64,000 nt of DNA from an uncultured Flavobacteriaceae bacterium. Lineage in GTDB: Bacteria; Bacteroidota; Bacteroidia; Flavobacteriales; Flavobacteriaceae. Positions 39,999 to 52,667 of this stretch are shown here, piece by piece (within the stretch, counting starts at the first letter, position 1; each line of letters starts with the position of its first letter). The notes beneath the pieces are model-generated. The model worked only from the letters and a program-made list of their open reading frames with translations, ran no database searches and was not told the origin of the DNA. The position numbers and the translations under genes are program-made. The stretch lies in contig CAJYAG010000001.1 of the NCBI GenBank assembly GCA_913065125.1, forward strand, positions 124,001 through 188,000. Reading direction: 5' to 3'.

Positions 39999-41273
39999 AT
40001 GAAAGACGAAGTGATTTTAAAGGTAGAAAACATATCGAAACATTATCGATTGGGCACCATTGGTACTGGAACCATAAGTCACGATTTAAATCGATTTTTT
40101 GCCAGAATTAGGGGAAAAGAAGACCCGTATTTAAAAATTGGTGAAACAAATGACCGTTCTAAAAAAGGAAAAACAGAATATGTTTGGGCTATAAAGGATG
40201 TTAATTTTGAATTAAAACGAGGAGAAGTTTTAGGGATTATTGGTAAAAATGGAGCAGGGAAATCTACTTTATTAAAAATTTTATCAAAAGTTACCAGTCC
40301 AACTACAGGCTCAATTAAATCAAAAGGAAGAATTGCTTCTTTGTTGGAAGTTGGAACAGGTTTTCATCCAGAAATGACAGGAAAAGAAAACATCTTTTTA
40401 AATGGTGCTATTTTGGGAATGACCAAAAAAGAAATTGAATTAAAACTTGATGAAATTGTTGCTTTTTCTGGATGTGAAAGATATATTGATACGCCTGTAA
40501 AACGGTATTCAAGTGGAATGAAAGTCAGATTAGCATTTGCAGTTGCCGCTTTTTTAGAACCAGATATTTTAGTGGTTGATGAAGTATTAGCTGTTGGTGA
40601 TGCAGAATTTCAAAAAAAAGCCATTGGTAAAATGCAAGACATTTCGAATACCGATGGACGAACAGTTTTGTTTGTGAGTCATGATATGGCAGCTGTTAAA
40701 AGTTTATGTAATAGAGGCGTGTTATTAGAAAACGGAAAAGTAAAATATATAGGTTTAGTTTTAGATACTATAAATGAATATTTGAGGGGGAATTTGAATG
40801 TAAAAAGTAAAGGAGGAGAAGTCAATTTCAATTTTGTTAAAGATAGAACATTATCTTATATAAAATTGTTTAATAATGAAGACAAGAATACTAATTTTAT
40901 TTTTATGGGAGAGAACCTTAAACTTAAAATAGGAGTATTTAATGAAAATGATTCTAAAGATATAGCATTAAGTATCTTAATTATTTCTAGTAGAGGAGAG
41001 AAAGTTGCAGCAATTAGATCTAAAGAATCTGAAGGGCGCTCTTTTAGTTCTTTTAAAAACTTTGAAATAAATGTTTTATTAAAATCTTTAAATTTAATGC
41101 CTGGAGATTATTTTTTAACTATTGCGTTAGCATTAGAAGGTAAAATGGTTGATTTAAAAGAAGAGGTAATTTGTTTCACTGTACACCCAAAAAACGTTAA
41201 CAAAACTAGTAAAATACCAAAAGGTAACTTTATAAATTATTTTTCTTCAGAATGGGAATTAAAAAATATATAA
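39999..41273 (+). CDS. Polysaccharide ABC exporter ATPase with C-terminal extension (Wzt-like)
   Basis: This 424-residue protein has an ABC domain (Walker A GIIGKNGAGKSTLLK, signature YSSGMKVRLAFA, Walker B PDILVVDEVLAVGD). A C-terminal domain of about 140 residues from residue 280 resembles the Wzt carbohydrate-binding domain, which in some O-antigen systems recognises the capped chain end. The first possible ATG (39984) overlaps the permease, while 39999 leaves one base after its stop. The extension argues for export of a finished, modified chain. Confidence 0.92.
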   Translation: MKDEVILKVENISKHYRLGTIGTGTISHDLNRFFARIRGKEDPYLKIGETNDRSKKGKTEYVWAIKDVNFELKRGEVLGIIGKNGAGKSTLLKILSKVTSPTTGSIKSKGRIASLLEVGTGFHPEMTGKENIFLNGAILGMTKKEIELKLDEIVAFSGCERYIDTPVKRYSSGMKVRLAFAVAAFLEPDILVVDEVLAVGDAEFQKKAIGKMQDISNTDGRTVLFVSHDMAAVKSLCNRGVLLENGKVKYIGLVLDTINEYLRGNLNVKSKGGEVNFNFVKDRTLSYIKLFNNEDKNTNFIFMGENLKLKIGVFNENDSKDIALSILIISSRGEKVAAIRSKESEGRSFSSFKNFEINVLLKSLNLMPGDYFLTIALALEGKMVDLKEEVICFTVHPKNVNKTSKIPKGNFINYFSSEWELKNI

Positions 41274-41830
41274 AAAAAACTTACTTATCTTTATTCGGTA
41301 GAAAAAAAGAGAGCGGTCCTTTTTTAATTAAAGAAGGTCCAAATCTTAAATGCGGAAGAAACTCATATCATAATGGCAATTTTATTATAAAAGGAAAAAA
41401 TGAAATAACCATAATTGGTAGTTTTTGTGCTTTTGGTCAAGATATAAAAATAATAACATCTAATCATAACTATAATTACTTAAGTATACAATATAGTTTA
41501 TATAATACTTTGTTTAATAAAAAACCGTTTTCGAATAAAAATAATTCTATATCCGTTAAATTAGGTAGTGATATTTGGATCGGAGATAATGTTATAATTT
41601 TACCCAATGTTGAAATAGGGTCTGGTTCTATAATTGCAGCTGGTAGTGTTGTGACAAAATCTTTTGAACCTTATTCTATAATTGGAGGTACTCCTGCAAA
41701 ATTGATAAAATATAGATTTGATAGTAAAACAAGAAAAGAATTGTTAGAATTAGGTTGGTGGGATTGGTCTGATGAGAAAATAAAAGATAACAAAGAACTT
41801 TTTTTTAAAAATTTTAATGAGAATGATTAA
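41252..41830 (+). CDS. Hexapeptide-repeat acyltransferase
   Basis: This 192-residue left-handed beta-helix enzyme of the WbbJ/xenobiotic acyltransferase group carries isoleucine-patch repeats (IGSFCAFGQDIKIITSNHN, VKLGSDIWIGDNVIILPNVE, IGSGSIIAAGSVVTK) and the terminal GGTPAKLIKYRF. Such enzymes O- or N-acetylate sugars using acetyl-CoA. It overlaps the Wzt gene by 22 bases and the next gene by 14. It is one of three acyltransferases in the locus. Which sugar it modifies cannot be told. Confidence 0.9.
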   Translation: MGIKKYIKKTYLSLFGRKKESGPFLIKEGPNLKCGRNSYHNGNFIIKGKNEITIIGSFCAFGQDIKIITSNHNYNYLSIQYSLYNTLFNKKPFSNKNNSISVKLGSDIWIGDNVIILPNVEIGSGSIIAAGSVVTKSFEPYSIIGGTPAKLIKYRFDSKTRKELLELGWWDWSDEKIKDNKELFFKNFNEND

Positions 41831-43740: not shown

Positions 43741-44391
43741 ATGCTAAAGCTATTTTTATATAAAAAATGGATAAATTATAAACGGAAAAAATTTATAGCT
43801 CTTAAAAAGAAAAAAGGGATATATATTGATTCTTCAGCTTCAGGTTTTATTAATGTAGATTTTAAAGGTAAAAATGGAGTGCCAGAAAATTGTCAATTTT
43901 TTGGTAATGTAAAAATAGGCTATGCCACAACTTTAGGGAAAAACAACTTTTTAGGAGGAAATATAGTTATTGGAAATTATTGCCAAATAGGAGCAGATGT
44001 AGCCATGCACGCAACAAATCACCCGATGACTTTTATGTCTACTTATATCAATAAAAACCTATTTAACGGAGAGTTAAAATCATTAAAAGAAAATAATAAA
44101 ATAGAGATAGGAAATGATGTTTGGGTTGGTCATGGAGTAATTATAGTTGGTGATGTTAAAATAGGAAATGGAGCAATTTTAGCAGCAGGAGCAGTTATAA
44201 CAAAAAATGTTTCTCCTTACACGATAGTTGGTGGAGTTCCAGCTAAAGAAATTAAAAAAAGATTTAATGATAAAATCATACAAGAAATAGAAGAATTAGA
44301 ATGGTGGAATTTAGAAGAAAATGAATTAGAAAAAATAAAACCATTATTTTTTAAAGATTTTAGCAAGATAAAAAGCATTTATGAAAAGTAA
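43741..44391 (+). CDS. Hexapeptide-repeat acyltransferase
   Basis: This 216-residue beta-helix acyltransferase has IGYATTLGKNNFLGGNIVIG, IGADVAMHATNHP, VWVGHGVIIVGDVKIGNGAI and GGVPAKEIKKRF. It resembles CatB/vat-type and O-antigen acetyltransferases. Its end overlaps neuB by 11 bases, so it may modify the nonulosonic acid or its precursor. It is about as AT-rich as its neighbours. Confidence 0.9.
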   Translation: MLKLFLYKKWINYKRKKFIALKKKKGIYIDSSASGFINVDFKGKNGVPENCQFFGNVKIGYATTLGKNNFLGGNIVIGNYCQIGADVAMHATNHPMTFMSTYINKNLFNGELKSLKENNKIEIGNDVWVGHGVIIVGDVKIGNGAILAAGAVITKNVSPYTIVGGVPAKEIKKRFNDKIIQEIEELEWWNLEENELEKIKPLFFKDFSKIKSIYEK

Positions 44392-45391
44392 TTTATTTAT
44401 CATAGTAGAAATAGCGCAAGCTCACGATGGTAGTTTAGGAATGGCACACTCTTATATAGATGCTGTTGCCAAAACAGGTTGTGATGCTATAAAATTTCAA
44501 ACGCACATTGCAGCTGCTGAAAGTAGTATTTATGAACCTTTTCGTGTTAAATTTTCTAAACAAGATAAAACTCGTTTTGATTATTGGAAAAGAATGGAGT
44601 TTACGTTAGTACAATGGAAAGAAATTAAAAAACATTGTGATGAGGTCGGTTTAGAATTCATAAGTTCGCCCTTTAGCAATGCTGCGGTTGATTTACTTGA
44701 AGAAATCGGAGTGAAGAGATACAAAATAGGTTCAGGTGAAGTAAATAATTTTGTGCTTTTAGAAAAAATAGCTCAAACAGGGAAACCTGTAATTATTTCT
44801 TCAGGAATGAGTTCTTATGATGAATTGGACAAAACAATTGCCTTTTTAAAAAGTAGAAACGTTTCGTATTCCATTTTGCAATGTACAACGGCATATCCTA
44901 CAAAACCAGAAGAATTTGGGCTCAATGTAATACCAGAATTAAAAAAAAGATACAAAGTTTCTGTCGGATTTTCAGACCATTCATCAACCATAGAAACCTG
45001 TATCGCAGCGACAACTTTAGGAGCTGAAATTTTAGAGTTTCATGTAGTTTTTGATAAGGAAATGTTTGGGCCGGACACAAAAGCATCCTTAACAATTGAT
45101 GAAACTATTACTCTAGTAAAAGCAGTTAAAAATATAGAAACAGCATTAAAAAATCCGATTGATAAAAAGGACAATTCTAAATTTTCGGATTTGAAACAAA
45201 TTTTTGAAAAGTCACTAGCAATTAATAAAGATTTAAAAAAAGGACACAGTATCACTTTTTCGGATTTAGAAACTAAAAAGCCAAAAGGTTATGGTATTTT
45301 AGCAAGTGAATACGAAAATGTATTAGGAAAAAAGCTCAATAAAGACTTATCTCAATGGAGTTTTTTAAATGATAATGATTTAATAGAATAA
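44381..45391 (+). CDS. neuB: N-acetylneuraminate (nonulosonate) synthase
   Basis: This 336-residue enzyme condenses phosphoenolpyruvate with ManNAc or a related 6-carbon sugar to make a nonulosonic acid. The NeuB barrel shows EIAQAHDGSLGMAHSYID, AIKFQTH, GSGEVNNFVLLEKIAQTGKP, GFSDHSSTIET and EFHVVFDKEMFGPD. A C-terminal SAF (antifreeze-like) domain follows with SLAINKDLKKGHSITFSDL. Where NeuB proteins often have KRPG, this one has KKPKGYGI. Whether it makes sialic, legionaminic or pseudaminic acid cannot be told; no legionaminic/pseudaminic dehydratase-aminotransferase pair is in the locus. Confidence 0.92.
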   Translation: MKSNLFIIVEIAQAHDGSLGMAHSYIDAVAKTGCDAIKFQTHIAAAESSIYEPFRVKFSKQDKTRFDYWKRMEFTLVQWKEIKKHCDEVGLEFISSPFSNAAVDLLEEIGVKRYKIGSGEVNNFVLLEKIAQTGKPVIISSGMSSYDELDKTIAFLKSRNVSYSILQCTTAYPTKPEEFGLNVIPELKKRYKVSVGFSDHSSTIETCIAATTLGAEILEFHVVFDKEMFGPDTKASLTIDETITLVKAVKNIETALKNPIDKKDNSKFSDLKQIFEKSLAINKDLKKGHSITFSDLETKKPKGYGILASEYENVLGKKLNKDLSQWSFLNDNDLIE

Positions 45392-45393
45392 AA

Positions 45394-46551
45394 ATGTCTA
45401 TAAAAAAAATATGTGTTGTCGTTACCGCAAGACCGTCCTATAGCCGTGTTAAAACGGCTTTAACTGCTATAAAAAATCATCCAAAATTAGAATTGCAATT
45501 AGTTATTGCAGGATCAGCTTTATTAGGTCGTTACGGAAATGCTGTTGATTTTATAGAAAAAGATGGATTTGAAATTGTAGAGAAAGTTTTTATGATTTTA
45601 GAAGGGGAAAACCCAACTTCAATGGCTAAAACTACTGGTTTAGGTGTAATGGAGTTAGCAAATGTGTTCTATAAATTACAGCCAGATGCAGTAATAACAA
45701 TTGCTGATCGTTTTGAAACCATCGCTACAAGTATTGCAGCTTCTTATCAGAATATTCCTTTAATTCATATTCAAGGAGGAGAAGTTACTGGAAATATTGA
45801 TGAAAAAGTACGTCACGCAAACACAAAATTAGCTGATTTACATTTAGTAGCTTCTGAAGATGCTAAAGAGCGTGTTTTAAAAATGGGTGAAAATCCAGTT
45901 ATGGTATTTAACACCGGTTGTCCGTCTATAGATTTGGCAAAAGAAATAAAAGAAAATCCGAAATTAGATTTCAATCCTATTGAAAAATACGGCGGCGTTG
46001 GAGAAGTTATTGACTGGAAAAAAGGCTATTTAGTGGTAATGCAACATCCTGTTACAACAGAATATAGTTCAGCAAGAAAAGATGTTTTAAAAACCTTAGA
46101 AGCAATTCATGAATTAAATATTCCTACTTTTTGGTTTTGGCCAAATGTAGATGCTGGTTCTGATGGAACATCCAACGGAATACGATATTTTAGAGAAACT
46201 GTAAAACCAAAAAACATTCACTTCTTTAAAAACATGGAACCAAATGATTTTTTACGATTATTAGTTAATAGTAAATGTTTAGTTGGTAATTCTAGTGTCG
46301 GAATTAGAGAATGTTCTTATTTAGGTGTGCCAGTTGTAAATATAGGAACTCGTCAAAATAGAAGACAAAGAGGTTCTAATGTGTTTGATACTATTTATGA
46401 TAAAAATGAAATTACAAACGCAATACAGAATAGAATTTCAACAAAAAATATAGTTTCAGAGAGTATTTATGGAAATGGAAATTCAGGAGAAAAGATTGCT
46501 GATATTATTGCAAAAACTCAACTTGATTTTCATAAAACAATAATGTATTAA
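45394..46551 (+). CDS. neuC: UDP-GlcNAc 2-epimerase (hydrolysing), NeuC type
   Basis: This 385-residue GT-B-like enzyme converts UDP-GlcNAc (or a derivative) to ManNAc (or derivative) plus UDP. Motifs are CVVVTARPSYSRVKTAL at the start, ITIADRFET, HIQGGEVTGNIDEKVRHA and VGNSSVGIRECSYLGVPVVN. The GGEVTGNIDE signature separates hydrolysing NeuC/LegG enzymes from the non-hydrolysing WecB. It starts two bases after neuB and supplies its substrate. Confidence 0.92.
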   Translation: MSIKKICVVVTARPSYSRVKTALTAIKNHPKLELQLVIAGSALLGRYGNAVDFIEKDGFEIVEKVFMILEGENPTSMAKTTGLGVMELANVFYKLQPDAVITIADRFETIATSIAASYQNIPLIHIQGGEVTGNIDEKVRHANTKLADLHLVASEDAKERVLKMGENPVMVFNTGCPSIDLAKEIKENPKLDFNPIEKYGGVGEVIDWKKGYLVVMQHPVTTEYSSARKDVLKTLEAIHELNIPTFWFWPNVDAGSDGTSNGIRYFRETVKPKNIHFFKNMEPNDFLRLLVNSKCLVGNSSVGIRECSYLGVPVVNIGTRQNRRQRGSNVFDTIYDKNEITNAIQNRISTKNIVSESIYGNGNSGEKIADIIAKTQLDFHKTIMY

Positions 46552-46554
46552 TTT

Positions 46555-47523
46555 ATGCTTGCAGTTTCTAATTACCACTATATAAGAGAAAGCTTTGATT
46601 ATAAGTATCCAAGTATATTTGGATTAAATCCAAAGCAGTTTGAAGAGCAATTGATAGAACTGTCCAAACATGGAACATTTATTTCTCAATCTAAATTATT
46701 AAACTATATTGATAAGCCTTTTGATAAAAATTATATACTAATAACTTTTGATGACGGATTATCAGAACAATTTTATTTAGCTAGACCAATTTTAAAAAAA
46801 TTAGGAATTCCTTATGTTTTTTTTATAAATACAATGAATTATCTTGAAAAGAAAGTTTCATTAGTTCACAAAATACACATTGTTAGATCTGAAATTTCAC
46901 CTGAAGATATTATTAATTTTATAAAAAAAGATTTTAATATAAGTTTAAACAAAAAAGAAAAGAGTTTAGCAAAAGTTAATTATAACTATGATAATGAAAT
47001 TTCTGCTAACTTAAAATATTTACTTAATTTTAAATTAAACCTTTTTGAGCAAGAACAAGTTATGAACCCTTTATTTGCTTCTATTAGAAATGAAGAGCAA
47101 GTAAATAAAGAATTATATTTTACGGAAGAACAATTAAATATTTTATATGCTGAAGGCTCTTTAGGTTCACATTCACATTATCATATTCCTTTAGGTAAAT
47201 ATAATGAAAATGAAATAGAAAAAGAATATTTAAATACTCAGAAATTTTTTAAAAGTAGATTTGGAAAAGAAGCTTATTCTATAAGTTATCCATATGGATC
47301 TTATGAGGCATGTGCAAAAGTTACGAACGTAGGTGAAAAATATAATTTTAAATTAGGTTTTTCTATGGAAAGAGCTGCCTCATTAAATTTAGAGAGTAAC
47401 CCTTTAATGATTTCTCGATTTGATTGTAATGATTTACCAAAGGGTAAGTTTTCTTTATTTAAATCAAAAACAAATTTATTTCAAAATATTAATTTAAGTG
47501 AATGGTATCAAAAAGTAAATTAG
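46555..47523 (+). CDS. NodB-type polysaccharide/sugar deacetylase
   Basis: This 322-residue carbohydrate esterase family 4-like protein has metal-binding Asp pair D66-D67 in ITFDDG and a His pair H206/H210 in GSHSHYH. YPYG lies near residue 240. It has no signal peptide, so it probably works in the cytoplasm on a soluble or lipid-linked sugar. It sits between neuC and a formyltransferase, overlapping the latter by 22 bases. An insertion of about 110 residues lies between the two metal motifs, larger than in simple NodB. Confidence 0.85.
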   Translation: MLAVSNYHYIRESFDYKYPSIFGLNPKQFEEQLIELSKHGTFISQSKLLNYIDKPFDKNYILITFDDGLSEQFYLARPILKKLGIPYVFFINTMNYLEKKVSLVHKIHIVRSEISPEDIINFIKKDFNISLNKKEKSLAKVNYNYDNEISANLKYLLNFKLNLFEQEQVMNPLFASIRNEEQVNKELYFTEEQLNILYAEGSLGSHSHYHIPLGKYNENEIEKEYLNTQKFFKSRFGKEAYSISYPYGSYEACAKVTNVGEKYNFKLGFSMERAASLNLESNPLMISRFDCNDLPKGKFSLFKSKTNLFQNINLSEWYQKVN

Positions 47524-48305
47524 TATTATTAACGAGCACAAGTTTTAGACATAAATATATTGCAAATCAGTTAGCAAAGTGTTTTAATTTAGCATTAGTA
47601 ATTACAGAAGAAAAATCATCAAAAATAGAAAGCCTTGATAATTTAAATAATGAAGAGTCTATTTTTTTGAATAATCACTTTAAAAATAGATTGCTAAATG
47701 AACAGAAGTACTTTGGAGATAACCTTGATTTTAATAAAGACATTAATGTTGTTAAAGTTCCTCATAAATCAATAAATTCTATTGAAACATTTAAAAGAAT
47801 TAAAAAGGTAAACCCCGATAGAATAATTTTATTTGGTACATCTATAATTAAAGAACCAATACTTTCTTTTTTTAAAGGGAATATAATTAATTTACATCTA
47901 GGGTTATCGCCATATTATAAAGGTTCTGCTACTAATTTATTCCCAATAAAGTATAATGAATTAGATTGTATAGGTGCAACAATTCATATAGCAACACCAA
48001 AAGTAGATCAGGGACCAATTCTACACCAATTAAGACCAGATATTAATGGAGATGAAAAAATTCATGATTTAGGAAATAAAGTAATATTAAAGTCAGGTAT
48101 AATATTACCTTTGGTTATAAGAAAAAATATTGATGGTGAGATTAATGGAAAAACTCAAATAGGTAAAGGTAGAATATGTAAAATATCCGATTTAGATATA
48201 AATGTTTTAAAGGATGTTTATAAAAAAATTGAATTAGGTATTGTAAGTGATTTTTTAAAAAATAAAAAGCGTACTTTAAAACCAATTATAGAAGTAGATT
48301 TATGA
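47502..48305 (+). CDS. Formyltransferase-family protein (sugar N-formyltransferase-like)
   Basis: This 267-residue protein has the formyltransferase core with candidate catalytic triad N130 and H132 in IINLHLGLSPYYKG and D169 in TPKVDQGPIL. Sugar N-formyltransferases use N10-formyl-tetrahydrofolate to formylate a free amine. The C-terminal 60 residues are not recognised. It overlaps the deacetylase gene by 22 bases and neuA by four, so it belongs with the nonulosonate cassette by layout. A deformylated or deacetylated amine made by the neighbour would be a fitting substrate; this is inference. Confidence 0.85.
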   Translation: MVSKSKLVLLTSTSFRHKYIANQLAKCFNLALVITEEKSSKIESLDNLNNEESIFLNNHFKNRLLNEQKYFGDNLDFNKDINVVKVPHKSINSIETFKRIKKVNPDRIILFGTSIIKEPILSFFKGNIINLHLGLSPYYKGSATNLFPIKYNELDCIGATIHIATPKVDQGPILHQLRPDINGDEKIHDLGNKVILKSGIILPLVIRKNIDGEINGKTQIGKGRICKISDLDINVLKDVYKKIELGIVSDFLKNKKRTLKPIIEVDL

Positions 48306-49000
48306 AAATTTTGGCAATCATACCAGCAAGAGGAGGGTCTAAAGGTGTTCCAAGAAAGAATATTAAATTATTAGCAGGAAAACCTTTGCTAGAATATACA
48401 GCTGCTGTTGCATTAAAATCTACTTTATTATCAAAAGTTATTGTTAGTACTGAAGATGATGAAATTATTTCTGTGGCAAAAACTTTAAACTTAGAAATTC
48501 CTTTTAAAAGGCCAATAGACTTAGCAACAGATAGCTCCTCTTCTTTATCTGTTATTCTTCATGCTTTAGAGTATTTTGAGTCTAAAAATGTATATTTTGA
48601 TTCTGTTTGTTTGTTACAAGTAACTAGTCCATTTAGAACCGTTGAGTTTTTAGACGAAGCCATTCAGAAATTTATTAAAAGTGGGTCAGATTCGTTAATT
48701 TCTGTACAAGAAATTCCACATGAATACAATCCACATTGGAGTTTTAAATTAGATGAAGGTCAAAATTTAAAAATTGCTACAGGAGAAACTGAAATTATTT
48801 CAAGAAGACAAGATTTACCAAAAGCGTATCATAGAGACGGAAGTATTTATATTACTAAAACAAAAACATTAAAAGAACAAAATTCTTTATTTGGGAAAAA
48901 AATAGCACACATCGTTTCACCAAAAGAGTTTTATGTAAATGTTGATACAATGGACGATTGGAAAAAAGCAGAAGAATTGGTAAAGCATTTAAAATTGTAA
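48302..49000 (+). CDS. neuA: Acylneuraminate cytidylyltransferase
   Basis: This 232-residue enzyme activates a nonulosonic acid as its CMP derivative. It starts IPARGGSKGVPRKNIKLLAGKPLLEY, the CMP-sugar synthetase signature, with LQVTSPFRTVEF near residue 105, RRQDLPKAYHRDGSIYI and FYVNVDTMDDW. It lacks extra C-terminal domains. ATGA overlap with the formyltransferase gene indicates coupled translation. It completes the neuB-neuC-neuA set. Confidence 0.94.
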   Translation: MKILAIIPARGGSKGVPRKNIKLLAGKPLLEYTAAVALKSTLLSKVIVSTEDDEIISVAKTLNLEIPFKRPIDLATDSSSSLSVILHALEYFESKNVYFDSVCLLQVTSPFRTVEFLDEAIQKFIKSGSDSLISVQEIPHEYNPHWSFKLDEGQNLKIATGETEIISRRQDLPKAYHRDGSIYITKTKTLKEQNSLFGKKIAHIVSPKEFYVNVDTMDDWKKAEELVKHLKL

Positions 49001-49006
49001 AATAAT

Positions 49007-50704
49007 ATGTGTGGTATTTCTGGGATAATTGGTAACAATTCTAATAATAAAGTGCTATCAAAAATGATAGAAACTCAAAAACATAGAGGTCCGGATAGCT
49101 TTGGGAAGTATGTTAAGAAAGGAGTTTGCTTAGGGCACAATAGATTATCAATCATTGATTTATCAGAAGCTGCAAATCAACCGTTTATTGATGAATCAGG
49201 GCGATATGTTTTAGTTTTTAATGGAGAAATTTATAATTATTTAGAATTAAAATCAGAATTAGACTATAATTTTAAAACTGATTCTGACACAGAAGTACTT
49301 TTAGCAGCATTTATTAAGTGGGGAAAAGAATGTTTACACAAGTTAAACGGAATGTTTTCGTTTGCAATTTGGGATTCAACCGAGAAAAAATTTTTTGCTG
49401 CTAGAGACCGATTTGGTGTAAAGCCATTTTATTATCATTTTTCAAAAAATACCTTTTATTTTGCTTCGGAAATAAAAACATTACATGCCGCAGATGTAGA
49501 TAAAAAACCAAATGAGAAAGTTTGGGCAAATTATTTTGTCTACGGTAGTTACGGAATGCCAAATGAAACTTTTTGGGAAGGAATTCAACAATTACCAGGG
49601 GGACACACATTAGAATTTGAGAATAATCAAATCATAATAGAAAAATGGTATGTTTTTGAAGAAGAAATAAAAAAGCATCAAAAAAAGAGAAGCTATGAAG
49701 AGGTTAAATCTGAATATATAGCTTTATTAAAAGATAGTATAAAACTAAGATTTAGAGCTGATGTTCCTGTCGGGTTTAATGTGAGTGGCGGATTAGATAG
49801 CTCGGCTCTTTTGGCTTTCGTAAATTTACTTGATGAAGATAAAAGTAAAATTAATGCCTATACTTTTTATACGGATGATGAACGTTATGATGAATTGCCT
49901 TGGGTAGAAGAAATGATTTCGTTTACAAAGAACCCACTTAAAAAAGTTTTATTAGAAGCAAAAGAGGTTAATGAATTATCAGAAAAAATAAGCAAATTTC
50001 AAGATGAACCTTTTGGTGGAATTCCAACTTTAGCTTATTCAAAAATTTTTCAAAAGGCTAGAGAAGATGGTGTTTTGGTTTTGTTAGACGGACAAGGAAT
50101 GGATGAGCAATGGGCTGGTTATGATTATTATGTAAAAAAATCAGAGAGTTTAATTCAAGGGGTTAACAAATCGCCTTTTCGTAAAAATACCCTTTCCGAG
50201 TATTTATTAAATCTTGCTGATAAGCCAAAGTATCCAATGCCATTTAAAGAAGATTTGTTAAATTTACAATTTAGAGATTTATTTTATACAAAAATTCCTA
50301 GAGCTTTACGATTTAATGATCGTGTTTCTATGGCATATAGCACAGAATTAAGAGAACCTTTTTTAGATTATAGATTAGTAGAGTTGGCTTTTTCTCAACC
50401 AATAGAATACAAAATAAAAGCTGGAGTACAGAAAAGTATGTTACGAGAAATAGTGTCAGAATATTTAAGTGATTCGATTAGTTATGCTCCCAAAAGACCG
50501 TTGCAAACTCCACAAAGAGAATGGTTAAATAATGAATTGAGAAAGAATGTTGACGTTAGCATAGAGAGCATAAAAAAATCTACTTTTAAAAATTGGTTTC
50601 ATCTAAATGAACTAGAAAGAGAATGGGAAAAATATAAAAGTGGAAATATGGATTCTAGTTTTCATATTTGGCAATGGATTAATTTTGAATTATTAATAGC
50701 ATAA
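49007..50704 (+). CDS. asnB: Asparagine synthetase-like glutamine amidotransferase
   Basis: This 565-residue enzyme has an N-terminal class II glutaminase domain with nucleophile C2 (MCGISGIIG) plus HRGPDSFG and NGEIYNYLEL. A synthetase domain carries the ATP loop FNVSGGLDSSALLAF and LLDGQGMDEQWAGYDYY. Within surface-polysaccharide loci, AsnB homologues are usually thought to amidate uronic or other acidic sugars. Its stop overlaps the next start (TAATG). The catalytic Cys is intact, so it should use glutamine. Confidence 0.93.
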   Translation: MCGISGIIGNNSNNKVLSKMIETQKHRGPDSFGKYVKKGVCLGHNRLSIIDLSEAANQPFIDESGRYVLVFNGEIYNYLELKSELDYNFKTDSDTEVLLAAFIKWGKECLHKLNGMFSFAIWDSTEKKFFAARDRFGVKPFYYHFSKNTFYFASEIKTLHAADVDKKPNEKVWANYFVYGSYGMPNETFWEGIQQLPGGHTLEFENNQIIIEKWYVFEEEIKKHQKKRSYEEVKSEYIALLKDSIKLRFRADVPVGFNVSGGLDSSALLAFVNLLDEDKSKINAYTFYTDDERYDELPWVEEMISFTKNPLKKVLLEAKEVNELSEKISKFQDEPFGGIPTLAYSKIFQKAREDGVLVLLDGQGMDEQWAGYDYYVKKSESLIQGVNKSPFRKNTLSEYLLNLADKPKYPMPFKEDLLNLQFRDLFYTKIPRALRFNDRVSMAYSTELREPFLDYRLVELAFSQPIEYKIKAGVQKSMLREIVSEYLSDSISYAPKRPLQTPQREWLNNELRKNVDVSIESIKKSTFKNWFHLNELEREWEKYKSGNMDSSFHIWQWINFELLIA

Positions 50705-52086
50705 TGAAAAAAAAAATATTCATTTTTTTACCTGACGGAGTTGGCTTAAGAAATTTTGCGTTTACCCATTTTTATAATACAGTGTCTAAAAATAATGATG
50801 TTTTTTTTCTTAATAATACTAGTTTTCCGCTAAAAGAGAAATTAAATATAAATGAAATAAAAATTGCTGGTTTAAAACCCCATTACTTAACAAATATTTT
50901 AAAGGTTGCAAAAAATGCTATTGAGTTAAAGCATAATTATAAAAAGTCAAAAGAGAAAGCATATTTGTCGTATATTTTTCCAAGAAAAAGTAAAACAATA
51001 AAACATTTTATTAAAAATAGTTTGATTAACTTTTACATCAAGTATTTTAATTCAAAGAATGGACTTCATAAAATTAATAAAAAAATCAATAAATTAGAAA
51101 GAATAACAGCGACTTATAAGGCAAGTTTAGCGTTGTTAAAAAAAGAAAAACCATCTTTTATTTTTTGTACAAATCAAAGATCAGTAGATGCAATATCAAC
51201 TATTTTAGCAGCAAAAGACTTGGACATCCCTACTGCAACATTTATTTTTTCTTGGGATAACCTACCAAAAGCAACTTTGGTTTTAGAAACAGATTATTAT
51301 TTTGTTTGGAGTGATTTTATGAAAAATGAACTAATAAAATATTATCCATCAATTAAAATAGATCAAATTAAAGTTACAGGAACACCACAATTTGAAAATC
51401 ATTTTGATAAGAGTTTATTAGATACTAAAGAAGTTTTTTGTAATGAAAATAATCTAGATATAAATAAAAAATATATTTGTTTCTCTGGAGATGATGTTAC
51501 CACATCGCCTTATGACGAATATTACTTAGAAGATTTAGCGAATGAAATTGAAAAATTAAATGATAATGGATATAATTTAGGAATTATTTACAGAAAATGC
51601 CCAGTTGATTTTACAGGTAGAGCAGATACTATTATTAAAAAGTATAAAGATGTTATTTATGTTATTAACCCTAAATGGAATAATTTAGGAAATTCTTGGA
51701 ATAAAGTAATGCCTTTAAAAGAAGATTTAAAACTATTGTCAAACACAATAGCGCATTCTATTTTAGTAGTTAACATTGGTTCATCTATGGTTTTTGATGC
51801 AGTAATACACAATGTGCCTTGTGCTTATATTAATTATAACACAAATCAAGTAAACACATCAATTTGGGATATAAATAATTTATATAAATTTATTCATTTT
51901 AAATCCATGCCATCAAAAAAAGCTGTTTTATGGGTAGATAAAAAGGGTGATTTTAAAACAATAATTAAAACAGTAAAACAAAATAAATATTCTTTAGAAA
52001 ATGCTAAAAAATGGTTCGATAAAATTAATAAGTTTCCAAAAAATGCAACAGAACAAATGCGAATAACTATAAAAGAACTAATCTAA
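50704..52086 (+). CDS. Predicted GT-B-type glycosyltransferase (tentative)
   Basis: This 460-residue cytoplasmic protein has a basic N-terminal half, a central segment CTNQRSVDAISTILAAKD, FSWDNLPKATLVLETDYYFV and VTGTPQFENHFD. A late SILVVNIGSSMVFDAVIHN resembles the nucleotide-binding end of GT-B enzymes. I do not recognise a specific family; CDP-glycerol glycerophosphotransferase-like or UDP-glycosyltransferase-like folds are both possible. It overlaps asnB and the following acyltransferase by one base each (TAATG), so the three are tightly linked. Confidence 0.7.
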   Translation: MKKKIFIFLPDGVGLRNFAFTHFYNTVSKNNDVFFLNNTSFPLKEKLNINEIKIAGLKPHYLTNILKVAKNAIELKHNYKKSKEKAYLSYIFPRKSKTIKHFIKNSLINFYIKYFNSKNGLHKINKKINKLERITATYKASLALLKKEKPSFIFCTNQRSVDAISTILAAKDLDIPTATFIFSWDNLPKATLVLETDYYFVWSDFMKNELIKYYPSIKIDQIKVTGTPQFENHFDKSLLDTKEVFCNENNLDINKKYICFSGDDVTTSPYDEYYLEDLANEIEKLNDNGYNLGIIYRKCPVDFTGRADTIIKKYKDVIYVINPKWNNLGNSWNKVMPLKEDLKLLSNTIAHSILVVNIGSSMVFDAVIHNVPCAYINYNTNQVNTSIWDINNLYKFIHFKSMPSKKAVLWVDKKGDFKTIIKTVKQNKYSLENAKKWFDKINKFPKNATEQMRITIKELI

Positions 52087-52667
52087 TGCTTTTTAAAAAA
52101 ATAAAAATAAGAGTAAAGGCTTTTTTTTTAAGGTTTTTAGGTATAGAAAATAACGAGCAGTATATTCAAAAACTACAAAAAAGAGGTTTAATTGTTGGAG
52201 CAAATTTTAATATGCAAAAAGATGTAATTCTTGATGATACACATTGCTGGTTGATTAAAATTGGAAATAATGTTACTATGGCTCCAAGAGTTCATGTTTT
52301 ATGCCATGATGCAAGTACAAAGCACTTCTTAAATTATACGAGAATAGGATTAGTTCAAATAGGTAATAATGTTTTTATTGGAGCTAATTCTGTAATTATG
52401 CCTTCTGTTATAATTGGCAATAATGTTATAATTGCTGCAGGAAGTGTTGTAACTAAAAACATAGAAGAAGGAACCATAGTTGCAGGTGTTCCTGCTAAAA
52501 AAATTGGAATTACTAAAGACTATATTTTAGAAAATAAAGAAAATCTAAATAATTCATTTACTTATGATGAAAGTTACACTATGCGAAAAAAAATTTCTCA
52601 AAAGAAAAAACATAAAATGATTACTGAAATGGAATCTAGCAAGCATAAACAAGCATATATTATATAA
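52086..52667 (+). CDS. Hexapeptide-repeat acyltransferase
   Basis: This 193-residue beta-helix acyltransferase has LIKIGNNVTMAPRVHVLCHD, LVQIGNNVFIGANSVIMPS, VIIGNNVIIAAGSVVTKNI and GVPAKKIGITKD. It has the active-site His region HDASTKHF. The tail of about 40 residues is charged and probably flexible. It is coupled to the preceding gene by TAATG. It is the third acyltransferase in the locus. Confidence 0.9.
   Translation: MLFKKIKIRVKAFFLRFLGIENNEQYIQKLQKRGLIVGANFNMQKDVILDDTHCWLIKIGNNVTMAPRVHVLCHDASTKHFLNYTRIGLVQIGNNVFIGANSVIMPSVIIGNNVIIAAGSVVTKNIEEGTIVAGVPAKKIGITKDYILENKENLNNSFTYDESYTMRKKISQKKKHKMITEMESSKHKQAYII

Follow-up and report, generated by a model that had tools for sequence, protein, structure and literature searches.

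How can a nonulosonate (NulO) come to carry anything other than acetyl at N5? Sialic acids and their relatives differ in the acyl group at this position, and formyl, lactoyl and free-amine forms have been published, despite the origin of the sugar from N-acetylglucosamine (GlcNAc). The N5 nitrogen is the amine of GlcNAc and arrives acetylated, and it is N7 alone that an aminotransferase provides. Therefore, a non-acetyl N5 calls for removal of the acetyl group and re-acylation. We analysed a stretch of 64,000 nucleotides from an uncultured Flavobacteriaceae bacterium (the window, in whose numbering gene positions are given), where genes for a predicted N-deacetylase and a predicted formyltransferase lie within a neuB-neuC-neuA cassette. 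Judged from the sequence, the two enzymes probably form an N-acyl-exchange module in the NulO pathway, with an N5-formyl NulO as the most likely product.

Organization of the gene cluster

Five genes were found on the forward strand in the order NeuB-NeuC-deacetylase-formyltransferase-NeuA, so that all three enzyme families of the cassette occur together in the window, and all five exceed the Pfam gathering scores:

44381-45391, forward strand: NeuB-like nonulosonate synthase, 336 residues (PF03102, 241 bits; TIGR03569, 310 bits, under the cut-off of 399.65)
45394-46551, forward strand: NeuC-like hydrolysing UDP-GlcNAc 2-epimerase, 385 residues (TIGR03568, 397 bits, cut-off 235.9)
46555-47523, forward strand: predicted CE4/NodB-type N-deacetylase, 322 residues (Polysacc_deac_1, 60.1 bits, cut-off 23.1)
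47502-48305, forward strand: predicted formyltransferase of the N10-formyltetrahydrofolate type, 267 residues (PF00551 Formyl_trans_N, 47.5 bits, cut-off 26.1)
48302-49000, forward strand: CMP-nonulosonate synthetase, NeuA/PseF-like, 232 residues (PF02348; PseF, 182.5 bits, under the cut-off of 205.7)

A preliminary description of this DNA had placed the deacetylase and the formyltransferase between neuC and neuA, and the coordinates of the open reading frames (ORFs) together with the Pfam results bore this out. The same coordinates gave the overlaps that it had listed, 22 bases between deacetylase and formyltransferase and 4 bases between formyltransferase and NeuA.

Catalytic residues and predicted fold

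The motifs noted earlier were located at residues 64-68 (TFDDG) and 206-210 (HSHYH) of the deacetylase and at N130, H132 and D169 of the formyltransferase, and we read the CE4 motifs and the N/H/D triad in their generally accepted functional sense. Both the TFDDG motif and the H-x(3)-H metal site of the CE4 family are thus present. The metal-site residues D66, D67 and H206 are kept in 69/69 aligned deacetylases and H210 in 68/69; the alignment comprised the window, its congener G081 and 67 of the 78 loci described below, the others having been omitted for length or redundancy (G and L numbers denote genomes and loci). The structure model of the deacetylase (predicted local distance difference test, pLDDT, 95.2) matched PplD, IcaB and PgaB with Foldseek E values of 1e-10 to 3e-9 (6dq3_A, 1.2e-10), and 215 of its 322 residues aligned with PplD 6dq3_B at 2.6 Å and a Z score of 23.9, which predicts the type of CE4 fold seen in PplD, IcaB and PgaB. 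Helices occupy some 100 residues of the model (approximately 94-200) between motifs 1 and 2, and this stretch holds H105 (63/69), K106 (63/69) and H108 (64/69). The first core strand of the model lies at residues 2-7, leaving little space for a signal peptide. The enzyme looks cytoplasmic, with no export signal apparent from sequence and model, no signal-peptide program having been applied.

The formyltransferase belongs to Formyl_trans_N, with the domain above the cut-off and the N/H/D triad present, and the triad is kept in 30/30 aligned sequences (the window, G081 and 28 loci with the gene pair). Its subfamily also bears an R16-H17 pair near the N-terminus. Among proteins of solved structure, the best sequence matches were PurN enzymes (E values of 6e-9 to 2e-8). 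Identity as PurN or Fmt was rejected, the scores falling far under both NCBIfam cut-offs. The preliminary description had named loss of catalytic residues on alignment as evidence that would count against it, and no such loss occurred in either enzyme.

Recurrence of the pair among relatives

Among 147 genomes, the source genome included, only the congener G081 matched both genes strongly, with NeuC and NeuA arranged around them as in the window; in the congeners G001, G025 and G057 the deacetylase has a GNAT protein in place of the formyltransferase. Five deacetylase queries were then compared with 84,980 species genomes, giving 223 pattern stretches and 123 relatives, of which the best 80 were kept. 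L118 and L135 were dropped for want of a scored deacetylase ORF, leaving 78 usable loci. L095 and L098 are apparently the source records of two of the five queries (G057 and G025), and the counts below are not of independent events, as L056/L057, L073/L107, L108/L109 and L101/L102/L113 are close kin. Gene labels came from single-query BLAST or phmmer searches, by which diverged genes may be missed, and many other gene names were assigned by eye. Since only the deacetylase sequence was used for the survey, the neighbouring genes are independent evidence.

The partner adjacent to the deacetylase was a formyltransferase of the window type in 28 of the 78 loci, a second formyltransferase subfamily in 3, a 278-residue GNAT in 26, MaoC with GNAT in 4, an FkbH-like protein in 3 and another GNAT in 2; none was recognised in 12. 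The deacetylase-formyltransferase pairing thus exceeds chance, with the catalytic residues kept, and a one-off insertion of the pair was rejected. NulO genes lay within 8 kb in 20/28 loci with the formyltransferase, 2/3 with the second subfamily, 22/26 with the 278-residue GNAT, 4/4 with MaoC and GNAT, 3/3 with FkbH, 0/2 with the other GNAT and 4/12 with no recognised partner. Six of the eight formyltransferase loci that had no NulO genes nearby (L066, L067, L110, L112, L124 and L125) are cut off on one or both sides by a contig end no more than 3.5 kb away.

The contiguous order NeuC-deacetylase-formyltransferase-NeuA was observed in 7/78 loci (L056, L057, L061, L063, L083, L094 and L106) as well as in the window and G081; in L058 it is broken by two small ORFs on the opposite strand. 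This sandwich recurs in flavobacteria, among them Gillisia mitskevichiae and strains of Christiangramia and Zunongwangia, and in a metagenome-assembled genome (MAG) of Ignavibacteriaceae. In two Anaerolineae MAGs (L108 and L109) the pair is reversed, NeuB-NeuC-formyltransferase-deacetylase-NeuA, and in L111 and L114 the stretch from NeuC to NeuA contains the deacetylase and, adjacent to it, a formyltransferase of the second subfamily, together with additional genes.

Control searches were made from the side of each enzyme. The formyltransferase profile gave 18 matches in 17 of 395 genomes of the order, and all five matches above 150 bits (the source genome, G510, G203 and two in G339) adjoin a deacetylase. 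G510 and G203 apparently duplicate the records of L066 and L105, which leaves G339 as the one new genome, and the NodB protein beside its second formyltransferase scored 94 bits, within the range of the NodB controls (20-101 bits). Ten regions were read among the 13 matches of lower score (75-97 bits): 0/10 lay beside a deacetylase, and no NeuB, NeuC or NeuA label was found within about 9 kb. The difference in nearby NulO genes, 20/28 against 0/10, gave a Fisher p of 9e-5, relatedness being ignored. Likewise, 0/13 other NodB-family loci of the relatives, read with 1.5-kb flanks, had a NulO gene within 1.5 kb, as opposed to 32/78 here (p = 0.002). NeuB-family matches were present in 47/50 genomes with the deacetylase but also in 9/14 control genomes, and hence carry little weight.

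Exchange of acyl partners

The deacetylase stays while the acyl partner changes. On NeuB-NeuC-NeuA backbones of the window type, the partner is the formyltransferase (window, L056 and others), GNAT (L065 and L074), MaoC with GNAT (L086) or FkbH (L077). In L101 and L102 the slot holds FkbH, a methyltransferase, an acyl carrier protein and a 340-residue protein that has no Pfam match, and the FkbH-methyltransferase-carrier set also follows the deacetylase in L077; L113, from Flavobacterium odoriferum, has the GNAT beside a deacetylase 90-92% identical to those of L101 and L102, the identity to that of L102, from F. proteolyticum, being 92%. Pfam was run on the methyltransferase, carrier and 340-residue genes of L101 and on the FkbH, methyltransferase and carrier genes of L077, the other labels being by similarity. 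A tree of the 69 deacetylases needed at least 16 changes of partner label, compared with a shuffled mean of 34.3, which indicates inheritance of the partner together with repeated exchange.

Glyceryl units are loaded onto carrier proteins by FkbH, and MaoC proteins form 3-hydroxyacyl-CoAs. Accordingly, the FkbH-methyltransferase-carrier slot probably provides an O-methylglyceroyl group, and MaoC with GNAT probably a 3-hydroxyacyl group. The preliminary description had suggested that the five genes might form one pathway. The survey did not support them as the unit: the five were rejected as an evolutionary unit since order and partner vary, and what is conserved is a deacetylase whose acyl partner changes.

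Phage contigs

Two viral contigs carry the pair. In IMG/VR 3300030095_005604 (L180/L184) the order is NanE-NeuB-formyltransferase-deacetylase-NeuA with a PglF-like short-chain dehydrogenase/reductase before NeuA, and in 3300030060_008074 (L181/L183) it is NanE-NeuB-two genes-formyltransferase-deacetylase-NeuA. Since the phage pair lies with NanE, it does not need NeuC. NanE gives N-acetylmannosamine (ManNAc) or its 6-phosphate, in contrast to NeuC acting on UDP-GlcNAc, and therefore UDP-GlcNAc is a less likely common substrate of the pair than ManNAc, the NulO or the CMP-activated NulO. The two contigs suggest that some phages edit NulO sugars too.

The 'Candidatus Pelagibacter MED605' locus L117 has the same genes as L184, and its contig may be of phage origin.

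Proposed route

The preliminary description had proposed deacetylation followed by N-formylation. The gene pairing, the retained residues, the predicted fold and the linkage to NulO genes give this route partial support, and from them we infer the reactions, their order and timing, the substrate and the product. NeuC would convert UDP-GlcNAc to ManNAc, NeuB would condense ManNAc with phosphoenolpyruvate, and NeuA would activate the product with CMP. The CE4 deacetylase would strip the GlcNAc-derived N-acetyl group from the future N5, and the formyltransferase would N-formylate the freed amine from N10-formyltetrahydrofolate, giving a CMP-N5-formyl nonulosonate. A free ketose with a 5-amino group cyclises. 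Because a free 5-amino-2-ketose would do so, the exchange is placed before NeuB or after NeuA, probably on ManNAc in the first case or on the CMP-sugar in the second. In the relatives other acyl machinery fills the formyltransferase slot, so that the module would set the N5 acyl group. By a narrow balance we are inclined to see in the deacetylase the mark of a widespread and exchangeable module that edits the N5 acyl group of nonulosonates in bacteria and phages, one stripping enzyme serving many acyl donors.

Neighbouring genes

Further genes flank the cluster:

41252-41830: hexapeptide-type acyltransferase-like gene, judged by eye
43741-44391: hexapeptide-type acyltransferase-like gene (Hexapep in the family scan)
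49007-50704, forward strand: asparagine-synthase-like (AsnB-like) amidotransferase, 565 residues (PF00733, TIGR01536)
50704-52086, forward strand: GT-B-fold protein outside existing family models, 460 residues (0 families in Pfam and NCBIfam; fold from the predicted structure)
52086-52667: hexapeptide-type acyltransferase-like gene, judged by eye

The AsnB-like gene is directly 3' of NeuA in many relatives, often on a NeuB-NeuC-NeuA backbone like that of the window. The model of the 460-residue protein (pLDDT 94.2) gave GT-B and epimerase-like matches, among them 5xvs_A (Z 24.4, 3.8 Å, 324 aligned); no sialyltransferase was among the best 50 matches of each search, which excludes nothing. Fifty-one homologues were aligned and 15 columns are invariant. 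This protein is a candidate NulO glycosyltransferase, possibly of a new family.

Evidence against the route and alternative readings

Several observations weigh against the proposed route, and they are gathered here with the readings that they bear on. The pair could modify another polysaccharide residue, for example GlcNAc bound to UDP or to a lipid carrier, and its location would then reflect the clustering of glycan genes. The GT-B protein, often near the deacetylase in Bacteroidota, is labelled in 20/28 formyltransferase loci and 25/26 GNAT loci; it travels with the module in this phylum, so that a different residue might be modified there. The pair lies behind NeuA and the AsnB-like gene in Dokdonia and Flavobacterium psychrolimnae. 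In L060 and L062, which are not cut by contig ends, the surrounding 8 kb hold no NulO gene; on contigs of matching length, NeuB is about 23 kb away in L060, on the other strand, and about 21 kb away in L062, with unrelated genes between, so that the link is loose and these are the weakest pair loci. A Pda deacetylase of Acinetobacter has been proposed to act on UDP-GlcNAc, according to PMC3628348.

The NodB control L045 had a formyltransferase-like neighbour of 48 bits, and a wider reading of it, L187 (G005:C13:13000-27206, 14 kb to the contig end), showed this distant formyltransferase to adjoin a NodB protein that is likewise distant (84 bits); the surrounding sugar-nucleotide genes include a DegT aminotransferase, and no NulO gene is among them. 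The deacetylase-formyltransferase tactic may thus reach sugars beyond NulOs, though both proteins are outside the two families by score. Co-occurrence with unrelated sugar pathways had been named in advance as adverse to the proposed route; 20/28 pairs have NulO genes nearby and six more are cut by contig ends, L060 and L062 have the loose link to NeuB, and only the distant pair of L187 was seen in a locus with no NulO gene. L060, L062 and L187 weaken the tie of the pair to NulOs and lower our confidence in the route and in the wider editing module slightly. Against the other-residue reading, NeuC and NeuA enclose the pair, and formyltransferase-NeuA overlaps of 4 bases occur in the window, L051, L061, L083 and L094. 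Moreover, six loci (L105, L108, L109, L115, L117 and L121) have no labelled GT-B protein, yet the pair lies among NulO genes there; the contig-cut L110 and L124 have neither the GT-B label nor NulO genes. We consider modification of another residue rather unlikely.

The second alternative concerns which NulO is made. PseJ is thought to act on the 4-amino group of an aminotransferase product, and the window formyltransferase might likewise serve a legionaminic- or pseudaminic-type sugar, the deacetylase having another role. NCBIfam placed NeuC above its NeuC_NnaA cut-off (397 against 236 bits) and NeuB and NeuA under theirs; therefore, the exact NulO is not fixed by the family models. Compared with solved structures, NeuB scored nearly equally with PseI 8h2c (161.5 bits) and SiaC 4ipj (160.9 bits), and the best match of NeuA was 6ifd, a CMP-N-acetylneuraminate synthetase. 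A LegC-family aminotransferase (359 bits, under the cut-off of 420) and, next to it, a dehydratase resembling PglF/PseB lie some 760 kb from the window end on the same contig, and leave room for a diamino NulO. A solved formyltransferase is named PseJ. Aminotransferase-like genes occur in 4/28 pair loci (L066, L083, L105 and L119) and PglF-like genes in 3/28 (L115, L117 and L127), and diamino NulOs may accordingly be the products of some pair loci.

However, the genome has 11 matches to the DegT family (PF01041) and none is in the window, in agreement with the absence of an aminotransferase noted earlier, and none is labelled in 24/28 pair loci (6/28 being contig-cut). No dehydratase of the legionaminic or pseudaminic type was noticed in the window, judged by eye only. 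A profile of 20 NeuC sequences of the window type preferred 4zht, the UDP-GlcNAc 2-epimerase/ManNAc kinase GNE, over the N,N'-diacetylbacillosamine epimerase 5xvs by 57 bits (297 vs 241 bits), which is suggestive of ManNAc as the product and of a single amine, N5; the NeuC profile of the other backbone did not discriminate (227.6 vs 226.2 bits). The formyltransferases above 150 bits adjoin a deacetylase in 5/5 cases, whereas L169 holds a far weaker one, with an aminotransferase one gene away, PglF two genes away, no adjacent deacetylase and a weak NodB match (46 bits) six genes off. This is the arrangement expected of the known aminotransferase route. A legionaminic or pseudaminic product formylated at the 4-amino group therefore seems improbable.

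The source genome also holds a second NeuB-family gene (L055, C2:479000-498500), 34% identical to the window NeuB and flanked, by eye, by cytidylyltransferase-like and KdsC-like genes, in a separate ulosonate locus.

The third alternative is that deacetylation alone matters, the product being a free-amine NulO and formyl transfer minor or regulatory. Neuraminic acid occurs as a residue in a Loktanella core (PMC3210612). The 12/78 deacetylase loci with no recognised acyl partner would fit this reading, and in L068 NeuB, NeuC and NeuA are present and the acyl partner was not recognised. But an acyl partner of one of several unrelated families is found in 66/78 loci, and the formyltransferase triad is invariant, which makes this reading very improbable. 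GNAT partners, on the other hand, may simply put acetyl back unless other acyl-CoAs are used.

Two further cases weigh against the proposed exchange at N5. The phage locus L182 has formyltransferase-NeuB-NeuA and no recognised deacetylase, beside a 435-residue gene. Seven records of Escherichia albertii plasmids match the deacetylase with a homologue of 28.6% identity; in the one record read (L186, CP043247.1) it pairs with a GNAT, metG, a DNA ligase and a CobT-annotated gene are also present, and no annotated NulO gene lies within 20 kb of the pair, the PLSDB gene table being incomplete. A tblastn search of the plasmids with the formyltransferase gave no match.

Comparison with known systems

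The window deacetylase shares its predicted fold and metal-site motif with PplD, IcaB and PgaB, which act on polymers outside the cytoplasm. Unlike them, it has no apparent export signal and, judged from the model, contains the helical stretch of about 100 residues. The formyltransferase has the Formyl_trans_N family and the N/H/D triad in common with the sugar N-formyltransferases PseJ, WlaRD, VioF and ArnA. These known enzymes act on amines made by aminotransferases, whereas the window enzyme adjoins a deacetylase and the window has no PF01041 match for an aminotransferase that could supply the amine from the same cluster. N5 derives from GlcNAc, so its acyl diversity lies beyond what the aminotransferase route can explain; the editing module, if confirmed, would account for it.

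In the literature searched, which covered few subscription journals, no description was found of a deacetylase and a formyltransferase joined in a NulO pathway. The pse islands of Aeromonas polar flagellins resemble the window by gene position, with a deacetylase between pse genes inside a NulO cluster, and differ in that 'formyl' does not appear in the main text (PMC7874193). Among N5 substituents, 5-N-lactoyl pseudaminic acid has been published (PMC7281560), and for the NulO of Flexibacter maritimus PMC3210612 gives 5-(3-hydroxybutyramido) in one sentence and 7-(3-hydroxybutyramido) in another.

The closest parallel in product is Halorubrum sp. PV6 (sequence record MH673034), which makes 5-N-formyl-legionaminic acid and, like the window, has a NulO cluster with NeuB, NeuC and NeuA homologues and a candidate formyltransferase, HrrPV6_1050 (PMC6137143). 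Unlike the window, its backbone is legionaminic, with LegB and LegC; the main text names no deacetylase and leaves open how N5 loses its acetyl group (PMC6137143). If our proposal holds, the step missing on the way to a non-acetyl N5 would be the work of a deacetylase whose acyl partners can be swapped; gene content would then help in predicting glycan structures, and the enzyme pair could serve to make N5-modified sialic acids.

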